From Candidatus Eiseniibacteriota bacterium (GTDB lineage: Bacteria; Orphanbacterota; Orphanbacteria; Orphanbacterales; Orphanbacteraceae), in contig JAJCZU010000007.1 in the NCBI GenBank assembly GCA_029262235.1, positions 1 through 64,000 on the forward strand: 64,000 bases of DNA, read 5' to 3'. The notes beneath the pieces are model-generated. The model had not been told where the DNA came from and searched no databases. It was given only the letters and a program-made list of their open reading frames with translations. This document shows, piece after piece, positions 1,775 to 56,049 of the stretch (within the stretch, counting starts at the first letter, position 1; the number at the start of each line of letters is the position of its first letter). A program made the translations under genes and the position numbers.

Positions 1775-1804
1775 GAGCCCGGAAGGAATCGCTCCTCCGG
1801 GCTC
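1775..1804 (+). terminator. Hairpin terminator after the sigma operon
   Basis: GAGCCCGGA pairs perfectly with TCCGGGCTC around a 12-base loop, starting 27 bases after the stop codon of the membrane protein. It is followed by a pyrimidine run (CTCTTCTCTT) rather than a pure T-tract, so it may be an imperfect intrinsic terminator. It leads directly into the CT-rich part of repeat element A. Confidence 0.55.
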
Positions 1805-1805
1805 G

Positions 1806-2119
1806 CTCTTCTCTTCCGCCCTCTTCTCCCCCTCCTCTTCCCGCCTCTTCTCTTCCTCCCCTCTTCCCTCTTCCCCCCTCTTCATTCCTCACTCTCTACA
1901 AGCATGTCGACGCGCTGGGCCGGGTGCGTGACCGGGCCCCCGGAGCTGAGCCCCATTGGAGGACCGCGGGCACGGCGTTCCCGTTTCGAGTCCCATTCAA
2001 GACGGTCCGACAGGGCGAAGCGAGGAGGAGCCGGTCACGTACCCGGCCCAACACGTCTGTCGTGCGCGGCACGGCGAGGAGGAGCCGGTCACGTACCCGG
2101 CCCAACACGTCTGTCGTGC
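1806..2119 (+). repeat. Dispersed structured element, copy A (CT tract plus inverted arms)
   Basis: This gene-free stretch between two convergent genes has the following layout. A polypyrimidine tract runs from 1806 to 1895. The 5' arm is at 1914-1935. Core box 1, TGAGCCCCATTGGAGG, is at 1947-1962. A variable 46-base segment follows. Core box 2 starts with GACAGGGCGAAG at 2009 and runs into a CGAGGAG-AGCC stretch. The 3' arm at 2031-2052 is complementary to the 5' arm at 20 of 22 positions. A second copy at 41909-42183 has the same core boxes, the same spacing (45 against 46 bases) and the same CT tract, but different arm sequences that again pair with each other. It is not a known element that I recognise. 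Confidence 0.75.
2020..2119 (+). repeat. Tandem 46-base repeat, period 54, inside element A
   Basis: The segment at 2020-2065 is repeated exactly at 2074-2119. It includes the end of core box 2 and the whole 3' arm, so copy A of the element carries two identical 3' arms that could each pair with the single 5' arm at 1914-1935. Copy B of the element lacks this duplication. Two units are too few, and too tightly spaced, for a CRISPR array. Confidence 0.85.
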
Positions 2120-27750: not shown

Positions 27751-30700
27751 TCAGCGAATCAGGACGATGCGCGATGTGCGCGTGTCGTCATGCCCTTCAC
27801 CGCGTGCTTCGAGCCGCGCGAAATAGAGACCGGACGCGACCGGTTCGCCGCTGTCGCTCGTTCCGTCCCAGACCGGCGCGTGCCATCCCGCGGCGCGATG
27901 CCCGGCTTCGAGCGTGCGCACGGCGCGCCCCGTCAGATCGTAGATCACGAGACGGACGAGAGACGCTCCGGGCACGTGATAGCGAAGTGTCGTGACGGGA
28001 TTGAACGGGTTCGGGCTCGCGTCAGGCCCCGACACATGGACCAGCCGCGGTCCCGTCACGGCAATCGTTTCTCCCGCGCTCTTCGCGCGCGCCACGGCGC
28101 CGTCGCCGAGCGTAACGAGGAGCTCGCGCACCGTCAATGCTTCCGGCGCGCCGCCGCCCGACACGATGATTCTGTACGCGCCCGCGCCCGTATCGTCGTT
28201 CCAGAGAATCCGGAGCGTGCCGGCACGCTGTGAGAAAAAGACGAGGCCGCTTTCCGTATTCTGCGTCGCGCCCGCACTCTCCACCTTCTCGATCGCCGCA
28301 ACGCGCCCCGCGTCTTCGGGCCACGCGAGCGAAACAAACGCGCTCCGGCTCGCTTCGCCTTCCAGCGTCAGCAGCAGCGTATAACCGTCCGGGTTACCGC
28401 TTCCCGCGCCGGGCTCACTCGCCAGGCTCATGGTGTGCGGCGCGCCCTTCGCAAAGTCGGGCAGAAGGACCACGCCCTCTTTCACGATCAGCTTCCCGAG
28501 AAAGACCACGTCGCCGACACCGAACCGTCCGTCGCGATTCAGATCGATCTCGGCCGCATCGTACTCCGCGGGATCCACCCGGCCGAGAACGATGTCCGCG
28601 GCGCGCGCGACATCCGCAGGCGTCCGCTGAAAGTCGATGTCGATATCGCCGAGAGGACGCGGCGCGGGCGCCGTTGTGAACGTGATCGGGGGCGTTCCTC
28701 CGAGCCCCTGCCCGAAGATGTCCTGCAGGCCGCCGACCAGCAGAGAATACGTCGTGTTGAACCGGAGCGAGTCGACAGGATCCACGACAAGAACGCTTCC
28801 CTCTGTCTCGAGCCGGCGCGAAACGGGCACTTCAGTCTCCCCGCGGAAGAGCTGCGCCCCGCTCAGGCTGGCAGGGTCGATCGGCAGGCTGAAGATCACG
28901 CGCACGTTCGCGTCAAGAGCCACACCCGTAGCGAAGTTCGCCGGGTCGCTCGCGAGCACCGTGGGCGCGCTCTGAATCGTCTGGAAGTTGCGCCACGCGC
29001 TCGGGATGCCGGGCCCGCAGTCGTCGACGGTGGCAACGCGCCACAGGTAGCGCTCACCGAGGGCGAGCTCCCCGATCGTGACGGACGGCGACGCCGGGAG
29101 CAGTGAGTCGAGGACGATCTCGGACGCGTCAGGATCCTGGACCTCGAGATAGTAGCCGGTTGCGGCCGGTACCGGCGTCCAGCTCATCGTGACGGGAATC
29201 GGCAGATTCGACGCACCCGAAGGCGGCCCTGAAAGAACGGGTGCGATGAGGCCCCGCAGCGCGCTCCCTTCGGCCGTGGGGGAAGCGCCGGCGGTACCGC
29301 AGCGGCTCGCGCCGACCACGAAATACTCGTACGTTTCGCCGAGCGCCGCCGTCTCGTCACTGAACGTGGTGTCGGTCGGCGATGCGGACGCGATCCACTC
29401 GCCATCGCGATACACGCGTACCTCTTCCATCACGGACGCCGAGCGATTCCAGTCGAGACGCACGGCGTTACAAAGATCGTTACTCGCGCGGAGACCCGAA
29501 AGGCGCACGGGCGTTTCTCCCACGCGGACCAGCCATGGCTCCGAACGCGGGCCGTCGCCGCAGACGCCGACAGGCTGCAGCTCGTAGCTCCGGTCGCCGA
29601 TCGAGGTCATCAGAATGGACGCGCTGGAATTGCTTCCCGCCACGACCGCCACGGGGATCGCGTCCCCCGTCTCCCAAACCTTATAGAAGAGCGCGTTCGG
29701 GTTCGGGTCCCACACGAGTTCGATGTTCGAGCCCCGGCAGCCCACGGAGTCGGATTCCGAACTGAAGTTCGTCGTCAGGAATGCCGGACGGAAAGAACCG
29801 AAGTCGCGCGCCGTTTCCGCGTCGGCCGACACGCCGCACTGGTTCATCGCGGCAATGCGATATTCGTAGAGCCCCACGCCGCCGCGATCAACGAAGCGAC
29901 GAAGCGCCGGGGCGAGCGAACCCACCACGAGAGTGGTCGAGTCGTTTCTCGTGCGCGTGATCTCGAAACCGTCGAGCACGATCTGGGACTGCGGCATCGA
30001 CCACGTAATGACGACGGAATCGCAGAGCGTGTTCGAGGCCGTGACTGCGATGGGCGCCGGCGGACGAATCAGCGGGCGGCCCAGCGTGACGGTGACTTCC
30101 GCGGACTCGCCGCAACCGTTGAAGGAGCGCACGCGGTACGTCACGCTCTTCACCGGGAAATCGGTCGCGAACCCGTTCCCCGCGCCCACATAAACGGGAT
30201 CCACACGATCCGACCGCGTTACGCGGATCGAGTCGAGCTGCGGGCTCCAGGTCACGTGCACCGAATCGCAGAACGAGCTGTCGATCCTGACGTCAAGCGG
30301 CACTGCGGGCAGATCGAAGACACGCACGAGCTGGCCTTCGCCGAGCGGTCCGGGGCCGCATTCACTGACGGCGCGCACGCGGAACTCGAATTCGCCTGTC
30401 TCGAAGACGCTGAGACGCAGACTCGGCTGCGCCACCGTTGCGATCAGGCTCCCGTCGCGCATGACTTCGTAACTCACTGCGCCCGCAACGGCCTGCCAGC
30501 GGAGCGAGAACGAAGCCGACTGACACGCCTCGCCGACTTCCGCCGTCCAGATCGGAATGCCGGGCGTACGGTTCGCGCGGCCGAAGTCTTCCGCTGCGAT
30601 CGAAAGGGCGCAGCGGTTCTCAGCCTGCACACCGTAGCGCCGGGACGCGGCGTCGGGCGGGAAGTCGACCACGCGATACTCGTCCTCGCTCGATAGAACG

Positions 30701-33700
30701 GCAATCGTCGTCGCCGAGGCGCCGTCGTAACGAATGACGCGGAAGTTCTGCACTGGCTCGATCGTCGATTCGTATGTCCACGTCACGATCACGGAATCGC
30801 AGAGCCCGTCCGTGGCGTGCACGCTGTCGGGCGCGGGCAGGAATCCCGGGAACGCGAAGCCGGTGAGAAGCGTCGTCGAACCCAGCGTGCCGCATGCGTT
30901 GTAACTGCCCACATGATACGAACGCGGTCCGCCGTCAGGATGAGCGTCGCGCCAGCTCTGCACGCCGGCGCCGAGGAACGACGTGTCACCGGCCGACGCG
31001 ATCCACACCCGGCTGTCCGTGCCGTTCTGCCATACGAGATCGATGAATCCGCACGAGTCCTGCGACGCGGACACGTTCGTCGGCGGCGATGGGCTCGCGA
31101 GTACCGTCACGGGGAACACGATGCTCGCGGGGCCCGGGCCGCATGCCGTGAACGCCGTAACCGTGAAGTTGTAATCGCCCGTCTGCGAGCGCACGAACGC
31201 GAACGACGTGTCCACGGTGCTGACGACGAATCCTCCCTGCGACACGCGGTATTCGAGCACGTTCGGCAGCGCGTTCCATCGAAGCGTGAACGACTCTCCC
31301 GTGCAGCTCGAGGAATCACTTGCCGCGGCCCATGTCGGGGCGGCCGGAATGCCGAGCATCGTTCCTTCGTCCTGGCTTCCGTCGTTCTGCGGAGAACGGC
31401 CGCACTGATTCCGCGCGCTGACCCAGTACTCATAGTTCCCCGGCGGCGGCGTGTGCACGAAGGAATTGCTCGTGACCGGAAGCGTCGTGATCGAGTCGTA
31501 CACGCCTCCCGCATTCAGATCGCGGAACGAAATCTGGAAACCGAGCAGCGAGGTCGTTGACCCCGAATAGCTCCACGTGATCGTGATGCCCGTGCAGCCG
31601 CCATCCGTCGCCGAAACGTTCGAAGGCGCGCTCGGCGCCCCCGCGAGACGTCGCCCGACAACACCGGGGTCCGAGATGCGACCGCCGCAGACGTTCAGCG
31701 CCTCCACCGTGTAGATATTCGAAACGCCGCCTGTCGCGCCGTCATCGAAATATGTGGTGGCGGACGCGGACAGATTCGTCGCGATCGTGACGCCGCCTCT
31801 TCGAATCGTGTAGGACGAAGCGTTGGCCGCAGCCGACCAGGTCAGGCGAACGCCTTCGCAGAGATCCTGCGTCGCCGTGAGATTGCCCGGCTCTCCCGGC
31901 CCCGCGCGCCGCGTTCCCGTGTCGACCGCTCCCGTGGAAGTGCCGCACAGGTTCCGCGCCTTCACGGCATACGTGTACGACCCCGGCTGCACCGCAGTGT
32001 CCGTGAAGAAATAGGGCGCCGAGAACACTTCGGCGACCTGGTTTCCATTGCGTTCGACCACGTAGCTGAGCGCATTCGGAGACTGGTCCCACACGATATT
32101 GACGACCTGGCAGAGATCGTCCGTCGCACTGACGCCCGTCGGCGGTGCCGGCTGATCGAACGGGCGCTTGCCCTGCGCCGGGGAGCCGAAGACCGGCCCG
32201 CCCGAGCACCGGTTGAACGGGCCGATGCGATAGCTGTGCGTGCTCCCGTAAACCACGGCGGTGTCGAGGTATGCGGTGAGCCCCGGCCCGATCGAATCGA
32301 GAAACGCGCCGTCGCGCTCCACGCTGTACCCGCTCGCAAACGCGCCGCCGACCCAGGTCAGCTGAATGCCCGCGCAGTTGTCGACTGTAGCCACGAGATT
32401 CGTGACCGGAACCGGCGGCGGCAGAATCGTGCCGAGGATCCCGGTCGACAGAAGCGGAGTTGCGGTGCAATCGTTGAACGGCCCGATCTGATAAGAGTGA
32501 TCGATGCCGGGCGCGGCAGTCGTGTCGACGTACGCCGTGATATCGGCAAGCACCGTGTCGACGAGAACTCCACCCCGCATGATGACGTAGCCGAGCTCGT
32601 TCTCGACATCGCTCCATGTGAGATAGACGCCGTCACAGGAATCCGTCGACGCGCTGACCGTCTCCGGCGGCGGCGGCGAGTCAGGCTTTCTCGCCCCCTG
32701 AATCAGCGCCGGCTTCGAAGCGCCGCACGAGTTCAATGCGATCACCGAGTAGAGCGGGCTTCCGGTCACGGCGCTCGTGTCGCGATAGAATCCGACGGCC
32801 GCGGGAACGCGCGCGATTTCATCTACGAAGTCGCGGACGATCGAAACCGTATCGGCCTCGACCGGCGCAATCCATTCGAGGCGGATCACGCCGCACGAAT
32901 CCTGGCTCGCGGTCAGCGCGGTCACGTCCCCGGGTGCGGCAAAGGGGCGTGCCCCCTGAACGGTGTCGCCGTATACGGGCCGGTCCTCGGAGCAGAAATT
33001 CGCGCCGCCCACGCGGTAGTTGTATGTGCTCCCCGAAAGCGCCGTCGTGTCCAGGTGAGAAACCGACCCCGCGGGCAGGTTCGCGATCGGGAATCCGTTT
33101 CGCTCCACGATGTAAAACGCTTCCCCTTCGACATCGCCCCACGTCAGAAGGATGCCGTCACAACGGTCCTTCGTCGCGGCAAGCGCGGTCACCGGATCGG
33201 GGGGCAGCGGAAGGCGTTCGCCCTGGGCCGGGTCGGAGGGCGTGGGCGCGGGGAAACAGGCGCCGAATGCGCCTACGCGATACAGCGTCGGGAGCGCGCC
33301 GTCCGCGAGTGTGTCGAGATACGAAATCGCATTCGCGGGAAGCGTGTCGATGCCGATCAGATTGCGATAGATGATGTAGCCGTCTTCGTTCGCGACGTCG
33401 CCCCAGCTGATCATGATCCCGTCGCATCGATCCGTGGACGCCGAATCGATCACGGGGATCGCAGGCGGTTCCGCCGCGCTGCCGCTGTCGCCCGCCGCAG
33501 CCGATATGCCGCACGCGTTCGATGCGCGCACTTCATAAAACGACGCCCCGGCGGGCGGCGCGATATCGCGGAAGAAGAGCGGTCCGTCGCTCACGAGGCC
33601 GGCGAAGAGTCCGTCGCGGAGCACTTCGTAGCCGTCCGCTCCCGGTGACGCATCCCACGTAACCCGAACCACGGCACACGAATCATCGGTCGCTGAAACA

Positions 33701-36700
33701 GATGTCGGCACCATCGGGATCGCCGCCAGGCGCGTTCCGTTCGCCTCGCTCGACCAGGCGGCATCCACGATACATTTCGCAAGCGCGCCGACGCGATACG
33801 CCGCCGTCGTGCCGGCGGGAATCGTCGAATCCGAAAAACTCGTCACGTCCGCCGGAAGGTCGACCAGAAAGCCCCCGTCACGCTCCACGCGATAGCCGGT
33901 TTCGTTCGCGCCGTCGAGCCATGTCAACTGGACGAAGGCGCAGTCGTCGGCCGTCGCAAGCAGCCCGGTCACGGCGCCCGGTACCGCCGGCCGACTTCCG
34001 ATCGCCGCATTCGAAAGCGCGGGGGTGATCGAGCAGCCGTTGAACGCGCCTGCGTAATACGTGTACGTCACGCCGGCAACGGCCGACGAGTCGCGCCACG
34101 TCACGATGTTCGGGGGGAGCGTAACGAGCGGAATGCTGTCGCGATAAACGGTGTAGCCTTCCTCGCCCGCGACCTGTCCCCACGCAAGCTGCACATAGTC
34201 GCACGAGTCGACCGTCGCGGTAAACCCGGCCGGACTGAACGGCGCGTTCGGCGGGCGCGTTCCGCTGTCGGTTCCGGAATCAGAGGCACCGCAATCGTTT
34301 CGCGCACGAATGCCATACGTATAAATGACTGTCGGAAGGGCCGCGAGATCCTGGTACGACACCGCGGCCGGACCGAGACGCGCCAGAATGTCGCCGTTTC
34401 GTAGAACGAATTGAGAGTCCGCGTCCGCGCCCGGCGTCCACGTAACGTAAACGGCGCCGCAGGAATCGTCCGTCGCTACGACGTTCGAAGGCGCGCCGGG
34501 GGCCCCGGGGAGCGCTGTTCCCGCGTCTGTGTTGCCGAAGATGACGCCACCCGAGCACGTATTGAAAACCCCCACCCGATAAGAGAGCGCCACGTCGATC
34601 AATGCCGGCGAGTCACGATATCCGGTGGCGCCGGGCGCGATCGTGTCGATCGGTACGCCCTCGCGCTCGATCACATAGCCGTCTTCGAACGATACGTCGG
34701 TCCACGCCAGCACCACGACGCCGCACGAGTCATCGCTCGCCACAAGGTCGTTCACGGCGGAAGGCGCCGCCGGCAGCCGCGACCCCGCAAGCGAGGCGGA
34801 AACCGCCGGCGTGACCGAACACGCGTTGAACGCGCCGACCTGGTAATCGGCCGAGGTGCCGGGCGCAATCACCGCATCCGTATAGAGCACCGTGTTTGCG
34901 GGGACCGTATCGAGCGCTACGCTGTCCCGGTACACGATGTAGCCGTCTTCGTTCGCCCCGTCTCCCCACGTGATCTCCACATGATCGCAGAGCGAGTCTG
35001 AAGCGCTCGCAAGCGTCGGCGCGATCGGGGGCGGCAGCAGCAGCGTGCCGGCGTCAACCGTCGAGGCCGAAACGCCACACGAGTTACCGGCCGCCACCGC
35101 ATATTCGTACGTGCCCGGCAGCGGTGTGTCGGCAAACGTAAGCTGCACCGTCCGCGCGACAACGGCGCCGTCGCGATACACGAAGTACGAGTCCGCTTCA
35201 GCCGAAGCGCTCCAGCTCACGAACACCGCGGCACACGAATCGTCTGTCGCCGTTACGAGCGCCGGCGCAGCGGGCGCGTCCGGCGGGCGCGTTCCGACAA
35301 CCGAAACCGAATCGCTTGCGCCACAAACGTTGAGAGCCGCGATCCAGTACGTCGAGGCGCCGTTCGGGGCGGCCGTATCGCGGTAGAACGGATCCGCCAC
35401 GTTCGCCAGAAAGGTGTTCTCGCGGTACACGGCGTAGCCCGTGTCGCCGGGATCGCCGGTCCACGTCACGCGCACGAGACCGCACGAGTCGGTCGACGCC
35501 GCAAGCCCTGTCGGAGGGACGGGCAGCGGGAACACAGCCACGCTGTCGATCACCGTGATCGAGCGCCCGCATTCGTTCGCGGCGAACGCCGCATATTCAT
35601 ACACGCCGGGCGAAACGACTTCGTTGAACGTTGTCTCGCCCAGCAGAAACTGCGCGATCTCCGCGCCGCCGCGGAACAGAAACACGGTATCCGCGTCGGC
35701 GGCTGTGTCCCAGTTCAGGGTTACGCTCACGCACGCCGTGTCGCCCGCGGTGAATCCCGTCATCGCACCCGGCGCGCCGGGGAGAACCGTGCCCTTCGCT
35801 TCGGTCGAATCTGAAACGCCGCATTCGTTGCCTGCCGCAATCCCGTACACGAACGATCCCGAACCGCCCGGAGCATCCTCGTAGCCCAGTACCGCAGCCG
35901 CGAGCGAGTCGATCCGCGCGCCGTCGCGATATACGTAGTAGAAATCCGCGTCGACCGAAGCGGACCACGCCAGGACGACGACGCTGCACGACGTATCGCT
36001 TGCCGTCACCGTGACCGGAGGCGCCGGCGCACCAGGAAGCACCGTGCCGACCGCGACCGTGCTGTCGGGCGAAGTGCCGCACGCGTTTTCGCCGGCCACT
36101 CCGTAGACGTAGCTTCCGCCCGGCACGGAGTCGACATACGTGAGCGATGCCGAAGACACGGTGTCGATCGCGATGTTGTCACGGTAGATGATGTACGTGC
36201 CGTCGGTGACGGACAGGCTCCACGAAAGGAACACGACGGCGCAGGACGTGTCACTCGCCGTCACATTGGAAGGCGCTGCGGGTGCGGGCTGCAGGCGGCG
36301 TCCCGTAATCGACGACCCGAATGCGGGCGAAGAGGAGCACTCGTTGAACGGGCCCACCCGGTAGTTGTAGGTAATTCCCGAGAACGCGCTCGCGTCCAGG
36401 TAGACCGTGAGGTTCGCGCCGATCGTGTCGATCGGAACGCCGTCACGCTCGATCACGTACGCCTCTTCGCGCGGCACGTCGATCCACGACACTTCGATTC
36501 CCGTGCAGAGATCCGAGGTCGCGGACAGACCGCTCACGACCGGAGGCGCGGCCGGTTTGCGCCAGCCGTTCACGGTGCCGGAAGCGACCGGCACCGGTTC
36601 GCAATCGCTCCACGCTTCGATCCGATAGGAGACCGAGTCGGCCGCCGCAGCGGTTCCGTCGAGAAACGAAACGGTGTTCGGCGGCAGCGAATCGACCGCA

Positions 36701-37137
36701 ATGCTGTCGCGATACAGAACGTAACCCGCTTCGCCCGCAACATCGGTCCACGACAGCAGGATCCCGTCGCAGCGATCGAGCGAGGCGGTGAAACCCGGCA
36801 CGGTCGCAAACGGCGCCGGGCGCAACCCGATCGCGGTCGCCGAATCGCCGATACCCGGATTGTTGATGGCCGCGACCCAGTACGTCGTGTTCAGACCGAC
36901 CGCCGCGAGCGAATCGCGAAACGAATTCGTGATCGTGTAGCGCACCGTGTCTGCCGTAAATACGGCGAATGAATCAGCCGCCGGCTGCGTGTCCCACGCG
37001 AGAGCGATCCCCCAGCACGAGTCGACACTCGCGGTCAGGTTTCCCGGTGCCGAAAGCTGGGCATACGCCGGCGCCGCCATCGACAGAAGAACAAGCAGGA
37101 GTGGAAACAGTGCGATCGCGCGGTTCCAGCGGCGCAT
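27751..37137 (-). CDS. Giant Fn3-repeat protein with Big_5, dockerin and C-terminal sorting domain
   Basis: A 3128-residue exported protein. The signal peptide is residues 1-26 (LFPLLLVLLSMAAPAYA). From about 27 to 2715 come 31 fibronectin-III-like repeats of about 87 residues. Thirty begin with a pattern like ASDDSCxxVxLxW, and nearly all of them have a second Cys near the end (ARNxCGxS), so a disulfide per repeat is predicted; this is unlike ordinary Fn3. A Big_5-like domain follows (about 2717-2824), then a type I dockerin with two EF-hand-like loops (DIDIDFQRTPAD and DLNRDGRFGVGD, about 2825-2890). The end is a FlgD-like/T9SS-type domain (SPNPFNPVTTLRYHVPG). It is probably a surface adhesin or scaffold. 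A cohesin-like lipoprotein is coded just upstream. Confidence 0.9.
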   Translation of the reverse strand: MRRWNRAIALFPLLLVLLSMAAPAYAQLSAPGNLTASVDSCWGIALAWDTQPAADSFAVFTADTVRYTITNSFRDSLAAVGLNTTYWVAAINNPGIGDSATAIGLRPAPFATVPGFTASLDRCDGILLSWTDVAGEAGYVLYRDSIAVDSLPPNTVSFLDGTAAAADSVSYRIEAWSDCEPVPVASGTVNGWRKPAAPPVVSGLSATSDLCTGIEVSWIDVPREEAYVIERDGVPIDTIGANLTVYLDASAFSGITYNYRVGPFNECSSSPAFGSSITGRRLQPAPAAPSNVTASDTSCAVVFLSWSLSVTDGTYIIYRDNIAIDTVSSASLTYVDSVPGGSYVYGVAGENACGTSPDSTVAVGTVLPGAPAPPVTVTASDTSCSVVVLAWSASVDADFYYVYRDGARIDSLAAAVLGYEDAPGGSGSFVYGIAAGNECGVSDSTEAKGTVLPGAPGAMTGFTAGDTACVSVTLNWDTAADADTVFLFRGGAEIAQFLLGETTFNEVVSPGVYEYAAFAANECGRSITVIDSVAVFPLPVPPTGLAASTDSCGLVRVTWTGDPGDTGYAVYRENTFLANVADPFYRDTAAPNGASTYWIAALNVCGASDSVSVVGTRPPDAPAAPALVTATDDSCAAVFVSWSASAEADSYFVYRDGAVVARTVQLTFADTPLPGTYEYAVAAGNSCGVSASTVDAGTLLLPPPIAPTLASASDSLCDHVEITWGDGANEDGYIVYRDSVALDTVPANTVLYTDAVIAPGTSADYQVGAFNACSVTPAVSASLAGSRLPAAPSAVNDLVASDDSCGVVVLAWTDVSFEDGYVIEREGVPIDTIAPGATGYRDSPALIDVALSYRVGVFNTCSGGVIFGNTDAGTALPGAPGAPSNVVATDDSCGAVYVTWTPGADADSQFVLRNGDILARLGPAAVSYQDLAALPTVIYTYGIRARNDCGASDSGTDSGTRPPNAPFSPAGFTATVDSCDYVQLAWGQVAGEEGYTVYRDSIPLVTLPPNIVTWRDSSAVAGVTYTYYAGAFNGCSITPALSNAAIGSRPAVPGAVTGLLATADDCAFVQLTWLDGANETGYRVERDGGFLVDLPADVTSFSDSTIPAGTTAAYRVGALAKCIVDAAWSSEANGTRLAAIPMVPTSVSATDDSCAVVRVTWDASPGADGYEVLRDGLFAGLVSDGPLFFRDIAPPAGASFYEVRASNACGISAAAGDSGSAAEPPAIPVIDSASTDRCDGIMISWGDVANEDGYIIYRNLIGIDTLPANAISYLDTLADGALPTLYRVGAFGACFPAPTPSDPAQGERLPLPPDPVTALAATKDRCDGILLTWGDVEGEAFYIVERNGFPIANLPAGSVSHLDTTALSGSTYNYRVGGANFCSEDRPVYGDTVQGARPFAAPGDVTALTASQDSCGVIRLEWIAPVEADTVSIVRDFVDEIARVPAAVGFYRDTSAVTGSPLYSVIALNSCGASKPALIQGARKPDSPPPPETVSASTDSCDGVYLTWSDVENELGYVIMRGGVLVDTVLADITAYVDTTAAPGIDHSYQIGPFNDCTATPLLSTGILGTILPPPVPVTNLVATVDNCAGIQLTWVGGAFASGYSVERDGAFLDSIGPGLTAYLDTAVVYGSTHSYRIGPFNRCSGGPVFGSPAQGKRPFDQPAPPTGVSATDDLCQVVNIVWDQSPNALSYVVERNGNQVAEVFSAPYFFTDTAVQPGSYTYAVKARNLCGTSTGAVDTGTRRAGPGEPGNLTATQDLCEGVRLTWSAAANASSYTIRRGGVTIATNLSASATTYFDDGATGGVSNIYTVEALNVCGGRISDPGVVGRRLAGAPSAPSNVSATDGGCTGITITWSYSGSTTSLLGFQISFRDLNAGGVYDSITTLPVTSNSFVHTPPPGNYEYWVSARNQCGRSPQNDGSQDEGTMLGIPAAPTWAAASDSSSCTGESFTLRWNALPNVLEYRVSQGGFVVSTVDTSFAFVRSQTGDYNFTVTAFTACGPGPASIVFPVTVLASPSPPTNVSASQDSCGFIDLVWQNGTDSRVWIASAGDTSFLGAGVQSWRDAHPDGGPRSYHVGSYNACGTLGSTTLLTGFAFPGFLPAPDSVHATDGLCDSVIVTWTYESTIEPVQNFRVIRYDGASATTIAVLSSEDEYRVVDFPPDAASRRYGVQAENRCALSIAAEDFGRANRTPGIPIWTAEVGEACQSASFSLRWQAVAGAVSYEVMRDGSLIATVAQPSLRLSVFETGEFEFRVRAVSECGPGPLGEGQLVRVFDLPAVPLDVRIDSSFCDSVHVTWSPQLDSIRVTRSDRVDPVYVGAGNGFATDFPVKSVTYRVRSFNGCGESAEVTVTLGRPLIRPPAPIAVTASNTLCDSVVITWSMPQSQIVLDGFEITRTRNDSTTLVVGSLAPALRRFVDRGGVGLYEYRIAAMNQCGVSADAETARDFGSFRPAFLTTNFSSESDSVGCRGSNIELVWDPNPNALFYKVWETGDAIPVAVVAGSNSSASILMTSIGDRSYELQPVGVCGDGPRSEPWLVRVGETPVRLSGLRASNDLCNAVRLDWNRSASVMEEVRVYRDGEWIASASPTDTTFSDETAALGETYEYFVVGASRCGTAGASPTAEGSALRGLIAPVLSGPPSGASNLPIPVTMSWTPVPAATGYYLEVQDPDASEIVLDSLLPASPSVTIGELALGERYLWRVATVDDCGPGIPSAWRNFQTIQSAPTVLASDPANFATGVALDANVRVIFSLPIDPASLSGAQLFRGETEVPVSRRLETEGSVLVVDPVDSLRFNTTYSLLVGGLQDIFGQGLGGTPPITFTTAPAPRPLGDIDIDFQRTPADVARAADIVLGRVDPAEYDAAEIDLNRDGRFGVGDVVFLGKLIVKEGVVLLPDFAKGAPHTMSLASEPGAGSGNPDGYTLLLTLEGEASRSAFVSLAWPEDAGRVAAIEKVESAGATQNTESGLVFFSQRAGTLRILWNDDTGAGAYRIIVSGGGAPEALTVRELLVTLGDGAVARAKSAGETIAVTGPRLVHVSGPDASPNPFNPVTTLRYHVPGASLVRLVIYDLTGRAVRTLEAGHRAAGWHAPVWDGTSDSGEPVASGLYFARLEARGEGHDDTRTSRIVLIR
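28500..28665 (-). other. Type I dockerin segment of the giant protein
   Basis: Two calcium-loop motifs, DIDIDFQRTPAD and DLNRDGRFGVGD, are each followed by a helix (VARAADIVLG and VVFLGKLIV). The second has Asp, Asn, Asp, Gly and Asp at all the EF-hand positions; the first is looser. Dockerins bind cohesin domains with calcium. The neighbouring gene at 37273-38295 has a cohesin-like domain. Confidence 0.75.
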
Positions 37138-40937: not shown

Positions 40938-41908
40938 GCGCCCTGCGGACCCCGCGCCGATTCCACGCTCTTCTTCCCTCGCTCGTTCTTATCTCATTTC
41001 TTACCGTCTCCGCTGTCCATGCCGATTCCACGCTCACCGAATCACCCGCACTCGGCCCAGCCGAGCACATTCTTCCCGACGCCGAAGGATTTCGCCCCGA
41101 ACTCTGGTCACCCGACGGCAACGCGCTCGTCCTCACCCGCGACCATCGCTACATTCGCATTCTCGACACGAAGTCCGGCCTGCTCTGGGACGTCTACTCC
41201 CTGACCGACCCCTCTCCCGTCCGCATTCCGATGGCCTGGGATTCCACCGGCGCCGCGCTTCGCTTCCTCGACTATCCCGCCGAAGCCATTCGCACCTACG
41301 ACCTGAAATCCGGCGCCCTCTCCGCGTTTCATGTGCGCGACCCGTTCCTGCTCCGCGAAATGTGGCGTGGCATAGAGGCGCCCGAAACGCGCGCGATCGT
41401 CTGGTGGGACCCGGTACGCGAATGGTGGTCTGCCTTTCGAGAGGGGGAGGGTCAGGGAATCAAACTAGTCGGCACACTATCGGAATTGCAAATGGATCGC
41501 ACTGTCTTTGATTTTTCTGGGGGCTGGACTGCGGACTTCAGGCATCGGCCCTCGGACCTTCTTGGAGTAGGCTCGAGAGAGATTCGGGTCGGCCCCTTGG
41601 ACAACGGACTCAGACATTCGCGGAACATCAATGACGATCTCGGGGACACGTCACGCCGGATTCCGGGAGTCCTGCCGACCTGGGAACCCGGGTGCACTCG
41701 TCTCTGGTATATCGCGGAGGATGCAGGGACGGAACCCGGCCTGCACGCCTACGAACCCCGCCTCGACTGGTACGAAAGGAGAGAGCATCACACCCGCTCG
41801 CTCGGCCCCCTCACCGGTGGACAAGTTCTCCACATCGCCATCGCACCAGGCGGGAAGCGCCTCGCCTGGCTCACGGCCTCCGGAATCTACACCGCCAATA
41901 TCGAGTAA
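40934..41908 (+). CDS. Secreted beta-propeller-like protein of unknown function
   Basis: The GTG start overlaps the Trm112 stop. The 324-residue product begins with a signal peptide (LLPSLVLISFLTVSAVHA). TolB/WD-like strands follow: RPELWSPDGNALVLTRDHRY, ILDTKSGLLWDVYSL, RTYDLKSGALSAF and, at the end, HIAIAPGGKRLAWLTASGIY. Between about 41430 and 41790 the codon use changes abruptly (CTA, TTG, AGA, AGG, GGA and TCT codons appear), while the frame stays open. The function is unknown. Confidence 0.7.
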   Translation: MSALRTPRRFHALLPSLVLISFLTVSAVHADSTLTESPALGPAEHILPDAEGFRPELWSPDGNALVLTRDHRYIRILDTKSGLLWDVYSLTDPSPVRIPMAWDSTGAALRFLDYPAEAIRTYDLKSGALSAFHVRDPFLLREMWRGIEAPETRAIVWWDPVREWWSAFREGEGQGIKLVGTLSELQMDRTVFDFSGGWTADFRHRPSDLLGVGSREIRVGPLDNGLRHSRNINDDLGDTSRRIPGVLPTWEPGCTRLWYIAEDAGTEPGLHAYEPRLDWYERREHHTRSLGPLTGGQVLHIAIAPGGKRLAWLTASGIYTANIE

Positions 41909-42183
41909 GACGCCCCGTCTCCTCCCCTCAATCGGCTCTCTACCTGCCCTCTTTTCCGGCTTCTTCTCTTCCTTTCTTCCTCTTCTCCTTCCGCCCTCTT
42001 CTCCCTTCCCCTCGCTCAAAGAGTGGGGGTGAGGGCGGGTGGGCGCGTGTCGGTTCCCCGCAGCCTGAGCCCCATTGGAGGGCCGGGCAACGATGACCTG
42101 GCAGTCTGAGTTTGTTACCGCGGCACGACAGGGCGAAGGCGAGGAGAAGCCGACACGCCCCACCCGCCCCCTCATCCCTACTC
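41909..42183 (+). repeat. Dispersed structured element, copy B
   Basis: This is the second copy of the element at 1806-2119, again between convergent genes. A CT-rich tract runs from about 41920 to 42015. The 5' arm is 42021-42055 and the 3' arm 42147-42183. Core box 1 (TGAGCCCCATTGGAGG) is at 42066-42081 and core box 2 starts with GACAGGGCGAAG at 42127. The arms are unrelated to those of copy A but pair with each other over about 35 bases. The substitutions I found between them keep G-U pairing in plus-strand RNA. The 3' arm overlaps the last codons and stop of the HAD gene. Confidence 0.75.
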
Positions 42184-42948
42184 CCACTTACCAATTCTTT
42201 TCAGCACCCCCCCCAACTCCCTGATCCCCTCAATCACGAAATCCGCATCATCCAGCTCGCCGTCCCGCCCGAAACCGTACAGGCACCCGACCGCCTTCGC
42301 CCCGATCCGCCGCGCACAGGCGACATCGTCCGCACGATCCCCGACAAAAGCGACGGCCTCGAGCGCCGGGAACGCCGACGCGATCTCGTTGGCCATTTCG
42401 GGTTTCTCGTCCTCGGGGGCCTGGCGATGCCGCACGCCGTGAAAGTACTTCTCGATCCGCTGCGACTTGAGCACGGTGCCGACATAGGGCTGCTGGCCGT
42501 TCGTGCAGATCCCGAGCGTGAAACCGGCACTGGTCAGCTCTTCGAGCATCTCGGGTACGCCGGGAAAGAGCCTGCCGTGGCTCGGCACGAGGTCGTTCTC
42601 GTGCACGATCACTTCCGCCGCGATCTCGGCGCCTGGCGCGATTTCTACGCCAGACGCGCGCGCGTCCCCCGACGCCTTCGCGCCGTGGGCATCGCAAAGG
42701 CCCGCGAGCCACTTCTGAAACTCGGCGGTCGGGATGCCGAAAAACGCCAGGATCTCGTCGCGGGGAGGGCACGGCACGCCGTACTTTTCGAATACATCCT
42801 GCACGGCCGTTACCGTAGCTTCGGCGCCGCTGAACAGCGTGCCGTCGAGGTCGAACAGAATCAGGCTCTCTGCGGGCACGACGGCGTGGAGTGGAAAGAC
42901 GCGATCGCCGGGGTCGCCGGCGCGGCGCGGTTTGCTGCGGTCGGTCAT
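42178..42948 (-). CDS. HAD-family phosphatase
   Basis: A 256-residue haloacid-dehalogenase-like hydrolase. Motif I is ILFDLDGTLF (nucleophile Asp33, acid Asp35), motif II is GICTNGQQPYV, motif III includes the Lys of DEKPEM, and motif IV is AFVGDRADDVACARRIGA. The cap domain lies between I and II. It looks like a phosphoglycolate-phosphatase-type enzyme, but the substrate cannot be named. The ATG is one base after the stop of the LamG-TPR gene, so the two are coupled. Its final codons lie within the 3' arm of repeat element B. Confidence 0.87.
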   Translation of the reverse strand: MTDRSKPRRAGDPGDRVFPLHAVVPAESLILFDLDGTLFSGAEATVTAVQDVFEKYGVPCPPRDEILAFFGIPTAEFQKWLAGLCDAHGAKASGDARASGVEIAPGAEIAAEVIVHENDLVPSHGRLFPGVPEMLEELTSAGFTLGICTNGQQPYVGTVLKSQRIEKYFHGVRHRQAPEDEKPEMANEIASAFPALEAVAFVGDRADDVACARRIGAKAVGCLYGFGRDGELDDADFVIEGIRELGGVLKRIGKWE

Positions 42949-53610: not shown

Positions 53611-53632
53611 TCGTGTACAAATGATTTCACGT

Positions 53633-53782
53633 TTCTTCGGGCTCTCAGGGAAAACGGTGCAAAACCGTTGCGGGCCCGCCGCTGTAACCGGGGACGAAAC
53701 CTGCAGTTCAGCCACTGTGACTCTGTCATGGGAAGGCGCAGGAAGTAGGACGATCCGGGAGCCAGAACACCTACCCGAAGAA
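53633..53782 (+). ncRNA. Cobalamin riboswitch
   Basis: The stretch has the conserved cobalamin-aptamer segments in order: AAAACGGTGCAAAACCGTTG, CGGGCCCGCCGCTGTAACCG, GCCACTGTGACTC, GGGAAGGCGCAGGAAGTAGG and the B12-box-like GGGAGCCAGAACACCTACC. The closing P1 stem is TTCTTCGGG with CCCGAAGAA. It lies 48 bases upstream of a BtuB-like receptor gene and should lower its expression when cobalamin is plentiful. Confidence 0.93.
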
Positions 53783-53829
53783 CCAACCGATGCAGGCTCG
53801 CGGATCGCGCCGGCATCCGGTCGTTTACC

Positions 53830-56049
53830 ATGCAGACAGATTTTCCAGGACGCCCGGCGCGGTTTTCGCGTGCCGTGTTTCGTCTCGTCGTGCTGGCCCT
53901 GCTTTGCGGGGGGGCGGCGGCATCCGTGCACGCGGAAGACGGTGACGGCGGCGCAGCGGTTGCTCACGCGGGCGCGGCGGTTGCTCACGCGGACGCGGCT
54001 GCAGACACGAGCAAAGCGGTCGACCGGATCACGGCAGGCCGGGCCGCGACCGACACGATCGATGTGCCGGCTTCGACGATGCGGGCACGGGAGCAGGCGC
54101 TCCGCTCCCCGTACCCCGTAACCTGGATCGACTTCGCCGCCGCGAACGCGAACCTGCACGACCTGTCGGACCTTCTCGAAAGCGTCCCCGGCGTGCGCGT
54201 AAAACGGTACGGCGGCCTCGGCGCGCTCGCCACCCCGTCGGTTCGCGGCAGCGGCGCGAGCCAGGTCGAAGTGTTTCTCGACGGCGTTCCGCTGAACTCG
54301 GCGCAATGGGGCATCACGAACCTGAGCGAACTGCCCGTGCAGCATCTCGACCATGCCGCGATCTATCGAAGCGGCTCCTCACTCGCTTCGGGGCGCATCG
54401 GCATCGGCGGCGCGCTGCATCTTTATACCCGCCGCGCGGACACGCCCCGCACGACCTTCACCTCGTCCGCGGGCAGCTTCGACACGTATCAGAATGCTCT
54501 CGTGCACGCGCGCCCGGTCGGGCCCGCGCAGCTGCTCGCATCGTATTCGCGAACCGAAAGCGACGGTGACTTCACGTATCGGTACGATCCCGGCACGCGC
54601 TTTTTCAATGAAGATGATGACAGTGAAGTGCGTCGTGAGAACAATCGTTTCCACGAAGAGGGCCTGCTTCTCAAACTGGCCTCGCCGCTTCCCGGTGGCG
54701 CGTCGCTCCACGCGCAGGCTGACTGGTACGATCGTGACGGCGGCATTGCGGGACACGGAAACCTGCTCTTCGAAGCGGCTTCGAGCGAGGGTAGCCGGCG
54801 GCTTGCGTCGCTGCTCGTGAACGCGCCGCCGATGGCGGGGGGGCGGCTGAAGAGCGAAGCCGGCGGTTACCGGCTCGCGCGCACCGCGCGCTACGAGAAC
54901 CCTCTGCGTGAAACCGGGCTCTCGTCTTTTCCCGTGAATCACGAAACGGAAGCGAGCGGGGTCAGGGCGAACAGCGCGTATCACTGGCTCGAAGCGGGGC
55001 AGACGATACACGTCTTCGTCGAGCGAAGAAGCGAGCGCTTTACGCCGACCGAAGATCGCGCGGGCGCAGCAGGCGCGGGGGGTTCGGGTGCGGCGCAGCC
55101 CGCGACGTTCGCGCGCGAGCGTACCCTTCACTACTGGGGCGCCGAGAATCGTGCTTCGTTCGCCGGCGATCGCGTTTCACTCACGGCTTCCGTTCAGGGT
55201 CAGGAGTCCGAAGACAACTTTCACGGACAGGTTTCGTTCGGACGGCCGCCGGAAGCGCGAGCGGAACGTCACCGTTTTTCTTTCACGGGAAACGCCTTCG
55301 GCGCCCGCTGGGAGTTCGCGCCCGGTTTCGCGGCGCGCGCCTCCCGCACGAGAAGTGCGCGCTTCCCGACACTGTTCGAGCTCTTCGGCACCAGCGGCGA
55401 AGTCGTAACGAACCCGGCGCTCGTCCCGGAACGGGCCACGTCATGGGACGGCGGCGTGCGCTATGCGCGCGGGGGCTTCATGGCCGACCTCGGGGTCTAC
55501 CATGCCGCGCGCGACTCGATCATTTATCTCGTGCAGAACTCGCAGCGCGCGTTCGTCGCGCAGAATCTCGAACGCGTCATAGCGAAGGGCGTCGAGTTTG
55601 AATTCGAATGGCGCCGGGGGCGTTTCCATTGCGGCGGCTCGTTTCTGTCGCAGGACGTGCGCCACGACGGCACGATCGCGCGCTGGAACGATCGCTGGCT
55701 CCCGTATGTTTCCCCGCGCGAGTATGCGCTCCGTGCGGGCGTGCGCGCCGGCGCGTTCCGATTCGGCTACGACGTTCTCTACGCCGACACGTTCTATCGC
55801 GATCGCGCGAACTCGCCCGAGAACCGGGCCGACTCGCGCACACTGCACAATGCAAGCGTCCGCTGGCAGCAGTGGCAATCCGTCGCGTTCGATTTCGACA
55901 TGCGCAACCTGACCGACGACACTTCCTACGACGTGTACGGCTATCCGATGCCGGGCCGTTCCTACTACATGACCATGACGCTCGACGCGCCGACACTCAC
56001 GCATTCGGGCAACAAGAACCGCATACCCTGGAACGAGGACACACCATGA
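53830..56049 (+). CDS. btuB: TonB-dependent outer-membrane receptor, BtuB-like
   Basis: A 739-residue outer-membrane transporter. A signal peptide is followed by a low-complexity AVAHAGAAVAHADAA repeat. The plug domain begins near residue 95 (LHDLSDLLESVPGVRVKRYG, VRGSGASQVEVFLDGVPLNS, SLASGRIGIGGALHLYTRR). The rest is a 22-strand-type barrel ending in aromatic-rich strands. I do not see an obvious Ton box. The cobalamin riboswitch immediately upstream makes vitamin B12 or a cobinamide the most likely substrate. The stop overlaps the next gene (ATGA). Confidence 0.88.
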   Translation: MQTDFPGRPARFSRAVFRLVVLALLCGGAAASVHAEDGDGGAAVAHAGAAVAHADAAADTSKAVDRITAGRAATDTIDVPASTMRAREQALRSPYPVTWIDFAAANANLHDLSDLLESVPGVRVKRYGGLGALATPSVRGSGASQVEVFLDGVPLNSAQWGITNLSELPVQHLDHAAIYRSGSSLASGRIGIGGALHLYTRRADTPRTTFTSSAGSFDTYQNALVHARPVGPAQLLASYSRTESDGDFTYRYDPGTRFFNEDDDSEVRRENNRFHEEGLLLKLASPLPGGASLHAQADWYDRDGGIAGHGNLLFEAASSEGSRRLASLLVNAPPMAGGRLKSEAGGYRLARTARYENPLRETGLSSFPVNHETEASGVRANSAYHWLEAGQTIHVFVERRSERFTPTEDRAGAAGAGGSGAAQPATFARERTLHYWGAENRASFAGDRVSLTASVQGQESEDNFHGQVSFGRPPEARAERHRFSFTGNAFGARWEFAPGFAARASRTRSARFPTLFELFGTSGEVVTNPALVPERATSWDGGVRYARGGFMADLGVYHAARDSIIYLVQNSQRAFVAQNLERVIAKGVEFEFEWRRGRFHCGGSFLSQDVRHDGTIARWNDRWLPYVSPREYALRAGVRAGAFRFGYDVLYADTFYRDRANSPENRADSRTLHNASVRWQQWQSVAFDFDMRNLTDDTSYDVYGYPMPGRSYYMTMTLDAPTLTHSGNKNRIPWNEDTP

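Follow-up and report, generated by a model that had tools for sequence, protein, structure and literature searches.

The window, a stretch of 64,000 nt on contig 7 of a 4.47-Mb genome in 11 contigs (G000), carries two copies of a palindromic element, A and B, both located between convergent genes. Each consists of a left arm, a core and a right arm, and each is preceded by a pyrimidine-rich tract:

41932-41992 (+): pyrimidine-rich tract upstream of copy B, rut-like (C/U-rich, G-poor)
42021-42055 (+): left (5') arm of copy B, copy-specific
42056-42146 (+): conserved core of copy B, CCCCGCAGCCTGAGCCCCATTGG .. loop .. CGACAGGGCGAAGGCGAGGAG, with two tandem G.A/A.G motifs
42147-42183 (+): right (3') arm of copy B, which at its end overlaps the 3' end of the gene on the opposing strand, 42178-42948 (-)
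1792-1901 (+): pyrimidine-rich tract upstream of copy A
1910-1937 (+): left arm of copy A
1938-2027 (+): core of copy A
2028-2065 (+): right arm of copy A
2074-2119 (+): tandem repeat of the core end and right arm of copy A (46 nt at a spacing of 54, with 100% identity to the stretch 2020-2065)

Half-element duplications such as the one at copy A (2020-2119) also occur at C3:143849/143902 and C8:73864/73924, and in the second genome analysed, G001 (L070).

Copy B (42015-42190) folds as one long hairpin with an RNA energy of -105.6 kcal/mol and a z-score of -6.7, none of 200 shuffles being as good, and on either strand the interval 42021-42183 forms a single long hairpin that far outdoes shuffled sequence. 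Walked outward from the core, the arms span 38 columns with 32 Watson-Crick pairs, two G.T mismatches and four gaps. Both G.T mismatches are on the + strand and there is no A.C. Copy A (about 1910-2065) forms a similar hairpin with different arms. As both copies fold with their own paired arms, the observation made in the earlier note is real: the arms of copy B are complementary to each other over about 35 bases, although indels interrupt the pairing, and their substitutions do leave G-U pairs on the plus strand. The statement that the arms of the two copies are unrelated holds for their outer part but not for the innermost nucleotides (GCGTGTCGG in one copy and GCGTGACCGG in the other), which are recognisably related.

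The element belongs to a family. A DNA search of G000 returned 33 matches, and a covariance model of this long type, built from 42 copies of two genomes (24 from G000 and 18 from G001, the sole sampled congener, which is 82% complete and in 830 contigs), detected 28 strong copies in G000, 18 in G001 and none in five other genomes of the family. Ten weak G000 matches of this model represent a second type with a short apical loop. The corresponding short-type model gave 65 matches in G000, of which 10 were long-type copies again, and 13 in G001, of which 8 were, with none in the five other family genomes. The total at E up to 0.001 is 83 elements in G000 (28 long and 55 short or variant, 44 of the latter being examined in their genomic context) and 23 in G001. 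A third variant, whose core is GGATCCGCGAGGCCT..TTGGCCATTTGGCCAGGCCGAGCGGTC, occurs in tandem arrays of about 165 bp (L155, L156, L157, L158), and an 880-bp block in L157 has elements in both outward orientations where G001 has 12 bp. Three G000 contigs end at or near element copies (L030 1-133, L010 1500-1618, L004 1500-1672), so the hairpin repeats seem to break the assembly.

The palindromes are multi-copy, intergenic and restricted to the genus of the window. The phylum is represented in the data set by seven genomes (G000, G001 and the five others of the family); we take its name to be JABDJQ01, and the accession prefix JABDJQ was seen in the scan. Of 41 genomes searched at the nucleotide level, 2 contained the family. 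When about 85,000 species genomes were scanned with exact patterns, 14 loci came up, all of them in the MAG 'Gemmatimonadetes bacterium SS_bin_27', a genome probably identical with G001. Neither type had an exact-pattern match in IMG/VR, and the phage and plasmid collections gave none either. Rfam 15 at the gathering score returned nothing relevant for the window and nothing for 12 loci with short-type or variant copies; permissive matches to copy B were mostly eukaryotic miRNA models, all far below the cut-offs. No description of the family was found by title or abstract in the open-licence PMC literature.

The arms differ from copy to copy while still pairing. Over 20 nt, the left arms of different copies share 43% identity, and the own-arm pairing score averages 15.4, as against 4.7 for swapped arms (95th percentile 10.8; 42 copies, two genomes). 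With the innermost 10 nt left out, 30 of the 42 copies still lie above the swapped-arm 95th percentile. The set of 42 was obtained from 45 candidate rows, 17 chance matches having been removed by eye, by dropping C1:23 (core edge unrecognised), C10:120904 (a near-duplicate) and the truncated C8:319472, together with the intact C8:319695 on the same row. The arms of the truncated copy do not pair, and those of C10:58555 and C10:120662 pair weakly. A conserved core with copy-specific stems, as first described from the two copies in the window, is supported.

The comparison of the two species gives the same picture at single loci. Fourteen long-type loci are common to both, with alignable flanks (about 80-89% identity), and 39 of the 47 changed left-arm positions in these pairs are matched by a change in the partner. 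Double changes that leave Watson-Crick pairs in both species number 31, compared with 0-7 in six slid registers (arms compared gapless, C8:319695 added by hand). A gap-aware count over 142 pairs in a shared register, to which C1:706, one of the 14, has no such register to contribute, yields 113 unchanged pairs, 15 double changes, 6 changes to G.T, 1 to A.C and 7 others. The earlier note had named non-pairing arms in further copies, or a lack of covariation across homologues, as grounds for giving up the idea of maintained pairing; the additional copies and the homologues both point to pairing maintained by co-variation.

The core is conserved in structure as well as in sequence. It has 95.2% of its cells paired, and 44 cells are changed on both sides, versus a shuffle mean of 13.2 and 2-5 when slid. 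Examples are the column pairs 30-105 (U-A 21, C-G 18, G-C 2), 46-92 (G-C 25, A-U 14) and 28-107 (C-G 25, G-C 7). Two tandem G.A/A.G motifs on the GAGCCCCATTGGAGG-bearing strand are kept in 41-42 of 42 copies; on the opposite strand they would read U.C/C.U. For the inner helix, the register of single-sequence folds was used, which differs from the one chosen by RNAalifold, because it accounts for the invariant G.A positions.

The mismatches left in the arms are also biased. If pairing were equally important on both strands, G.T and A.C leftovers would be expected in equal numbers. In the first 16 arm columns, their ratio is 18:5 in the 24 G000 copies (p 0.011) and 14:0 in the 18 G001 copies (p 0.00012), and the 44 short-type and variant copies give 36:17 (p 0.013, tandem duplicates not collapsed). 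The ratio over all alignable long-type columns is 62:48, which is not significant, the bias being limited to the columns near the core; the claim about the strand uses the inner columns only, because pairing is certain there. Together with the G.A/A.G motifs on the same strand, this bias indicates that the GAGCCCCATTGGAGG (+) strand is most likely the one that folds, single-stranded and as RNA. The earlier note had left the choice between a selected RNA hairpin and a cruciform, and the strand-biased mismatches and motifs favour the RNA hairpin over a symmetrical DNA cruciform. A single-stranded DNA hairpin may be expected to show the same bias.

The right-arm end adjoins the stop codon of an opposing gene at 41 of 59 loci (p 0.004; the long-type part, 16:7, was counted by hand), and at the other 18 the element points into a 5' region. 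In the short-type groups, 19 of the 25 opposing stops are at most 50 nt away, and the groups with both neighbours called lie between convergent genes in 13 cases and between divergent genes in 2. The upstream gene of short-type copies, called for 35 of 44, is co-directional in 23 and divergent in 12. These gene limits come from the analysis's own codon-usage caller rather than a published one. Elements also occur as outward-facing (-)(+) pairs. Some of these pairs (L081 4530-5850, L070 5014-5450, L079 4700-6730) enclose genes that look by eye like those of secreted or beta-helix proteins, and the content enclosed by the C7:70903/72357 pair differs between the two species.

A pyrimidine-rich tract often precedes the hairpin. 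By a strict test (a 40-nt stretch with at least 90% pyrimidine, at most 110 nt upstream of the element), it is present in 26 of 71 copies (8/27 long and 18/44 other) and in none of 146 control intergenic windows; most copies (19/27 long, 26/44 other) are thus without a strong tract by this test, and a purine tract lies upstream of none of the 71. The 217 kb composed of the window and of stretches chosen around elements hold nine long purine/pyrimidine tracts, eight of which are upstream of an element in the orientation of the GAGCCCCATTGGAGG strand, the exception being C6:113008. In the 64-kb window, the only two are those of copies A and B. In the tandem arrays, tract and hairpin repeat together, with about 165 bp per unit.

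The order of parts is therefore a pyrimidine-rich tract, paired copy-specific arms around a conserved core, and the stop codon of the opposing gene. We tentatively favour the reading of this arrangement as a repeated 3'-end module, in which a Rho-loading-like tract and an exonuclease-resistant hairpin would end transcripts that run into the opposing gene. Family membership, co-varying pairing at orthologous positions, strand bias, position and orientation are direct observations, and from them we infer the mechanism. RNA transcribed through the pyrimidine tract in the direction of the opposing gene would fold into the hairpin, and the unstructured C/U-rich tract could load Rho, so that transcription would stop at or just past the hairpin, before an antisense run into the opposing gene. 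Exonucleases would then trim the transcript back to the hairpin, which would protect the 3' end of the upstream transcript. The arms would be free to change in sequence so long as they pair, the core would be kept because it is read by a protein or by the fold itself, and the present copy number would have been reached through element-like spread and the exchange of cores between copies. The data thus suggest that the folded RNA is useful, probably at transcript ends. Among the roles listed in the earlier note was a bidirectional 3'-end or RNA-stability element; the position fits a 3'-end role, while "bidirectional" finds no support because of the bias towards one strand.

A Rho gene is encoded in the genome (PF07497 at G000:C2:507641-507862, E 3.4e-35). 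The resemblance to Rho-dependent terminators lies in the pyrimidine-rich, G-poor tract, which faces antisense, and in a stable structure that would stop 3'-5' exonucleases. We know of no conserved hairpin core in Rho-dependent terminators; they are not a repeated sequence family, unlike the elements described here, and termination is deduced for the latter from their parts. According to PMC12350095, rut sites lie preferentially antisense to genes and are unstructured, rich in pyrimidines and poor in G; the 3' ends made by Rho are trimmed back to a stable structure.

The main rival explanation, which is possible but rather unlikely, is a selfish non-autonomous palindrome (REP/MITE-like), mobile as a folded single strand of DNA or copied by an enzyme that either belongs to the host or has been lost. 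The strand-specific fold would serve mobility only, and the position at 3' ends would be where insertion is tolerated. A strand-specific hairpin of single-stranded DNA would also yield the G.T bias, and the history of the family has features that fit movement. The G001 genome was searched for 11 flanks of short-type and variant copies and eight were found, the flanks of C4:106713, C2:345543 and C2:360681 being absent from the matches. The element is present at C3:91008. Two sites are empty with syntenic sequence on both flanks, that of C8:67793 with its partner C8:67505 and that of the C8:381170 block, the flanks being too diverged to place the element ends, and with them any target-site duplication such as TA, exactly; C8:128923 and C4:1010133 are empty as judged from one flank. 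At C7:170118, G001 has a degenerate partner only, and at C2:405483 it has arms without a core. At C3:73087, a long-type element is nested in the loop of an old short-type hairpin. Between C8:67505 and C8:67793 lies an ordinary intrinsic-terminator-like hairpin (AAACGCCGC..GCGGCGTTT; L127 820-850, L181), which is conserved in G001, a genome that lacks the two elements.

Spread and decay have thus both taken place in the family. Many short-type copies were lost or never present in G001 without an obvious replacement, and these are at least dispensable. The earlier suggestion of a non-autonomous mobile element is supported in part, by presence/absence between the species, by the nested copy and by the tandem arrays; the outward-facing (-)(+) pairs recall BIMEs. 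What mobility leaves unexplained is that the 14 shared long-type loci co-vary in place, as selection for movement would not act on copies that stay immobile. Moreover, no Y1 transposase (PF01797) and no reverse transcriptase (PF00078) was matched in G000 or in the 82% complete G001, a Y1 transposase being present in four of the five other family genomes.

Several known repeats bear comparison on this point. The REP/BIME elements of TnpA-REP (RAYT) systems are palindromes of 20-50 nt that carry a GTAG tetranucleotide and have their stem in common. PMC8266576 describes them as intergenic, numerous in a genome, found in inverted pairs and tandem copies and recognised as a fold on one strand. The present family resembles them in its numerous intergenic palindromes and in its inverted pairs and tandem arrays. 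It differs in its hairpins of about 90-160 nt, its arms that vary by copy and the absence of a Y1 transposase from either genome, and the alignment, 18-nt arms included, shows no shared GTAG-type tetranucleotide outside the core. A RAYT/REP identity was rejected because no Y1 transposase was matched, and a retron or group II intron derivative because no reverse transcriptase was. MITE-like repeats typically have terminal repeats common to all copies. The present elements share with this group (ERIC, RPE, RUP, Correia) an insertion/absence polymorphism, seen at two loci, but their outer arms are copy-specific and the core alone is shared. The resemblance is to ERIC, NEMIS/Correia, RPE and YPAL/RU-2 as PMC2229807 describes them, namely non-coding intergenic palindromes of about 100-170 bp that form long RNA stem-loops affecting neighbouring transcripts.

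A further reading, an unlikely one in our estimate, is that the core and its loop form an exchangeable cassette able to enter the loops of existing 3' hairpins, the arms belonging to the site and the core to the cassette. At C4:814443, C7:70903 and C7:1938, the arms are conserved between the species and the loop type differs, from which it follows that cores have been exchanged between copies; the arms without a core in G001 and the nested element agree with this. The swapped loops also lend indirect support to the "recombination site" of the earlier note. The cassette would amount to a hairpin-targeted mobile or conversion system that doubles as an RNA 3'-end module, with no Y1 transposase or reverse transcriptase found. 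In integron attC sites, stems vary but keep pairing and recognition of the fold is strand-specific, both of which resemble the present elements. The conserved parts are the outer ends in attC and the inner core here, and no cassette array was seen.

Maintenance of arm identity by mutation, through template switching between the arms of the quasi-palindrome as it is replicated and with selection playing little or no part, appears improbable. At C7:91361, both arms have a matching insertion in G001 that the other species lacks, so templated correction has contributed at least once and the templated inversion proposed earlier has one orthologous pair in its favour. This paired insertion suggests that templated DNA repair, and not selection, maintains part of the arm pairing. 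Slippage, which is expected at long hairpins, would likewise produce the tandem duplications of right arm and core end at copy A and the two loci listed with it. Nevertheless, the double changes in orthologous arms are mostly isolated single pairs and not runs, template switching gives perfect pairs with no preference for G.T over A.C, and the core helices co-vary around invariant mismatches that arm correction would erase.

Dispersed small-RNA genes, whose individually transcribed copies would act in trans through pairing of the C/U tract with purine-rich ribosome-binding sites, seem very unlikely. The strand-specific fold, the pyrimidine-rich single-stranded leader and the divergent pairs that could share a promoter region would all suit such genes, but no sigma-70-like promoter was found near copy B, the location beside opposing stop codons is unexpected for free-standing genes, and pairs lie as close as about 70 nt (C2:486498/486568). 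Oversized intrinsic terminators of the opposing gene are highly improbable: the hairpin does follow the opposing stop by 12-47 nt in many copies, a few short-type copies (e.g. C8:67793, C2:405483) have an A-run before the left arm that equals a post-hairpin U-run on the opposing strand, and the C2:405483 site in G001 has a core-less hairpin, but a scan of 41850-42300 (loops of 3-8 only) found no intrinsic terminator (GC hairpin and U-tract) at copy B on either strand, long-type copies have neither an excess of A immediately beyond the left arm nor one of T immediately beyond the right arm, and the G.T bias and G.A motifs are on the other strand.

Palindromic repeats next to gene ends are widespread in bacteria, and their stems are usually common to all copies, which makes it hard to tell whether the pairing itself is selected. 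In the present family, the arms are particular to each copy and two species allow a copy-by-copy comparison, so that an old question becomes testable, namely whether such repeats owe their retention to an RNA fold at transcript ends or are parasites only. Should the core cassette indeed enter existing hairpins, its manner of spreading would be unusual among small elements.

Two other features of the window were recorded. A cobalamin riboswitch at 53622-53792 (+), the sole Rfam match of the window at the gathering score, with 99.6 bits, lies upstream of the gene at 53875. The interval 27751-37137 (-) encodes one protein of 3,128 aa with many diverged domain repeats, the C-terminal part of which is presumably FlgD-like, a label assigned from its sequence.
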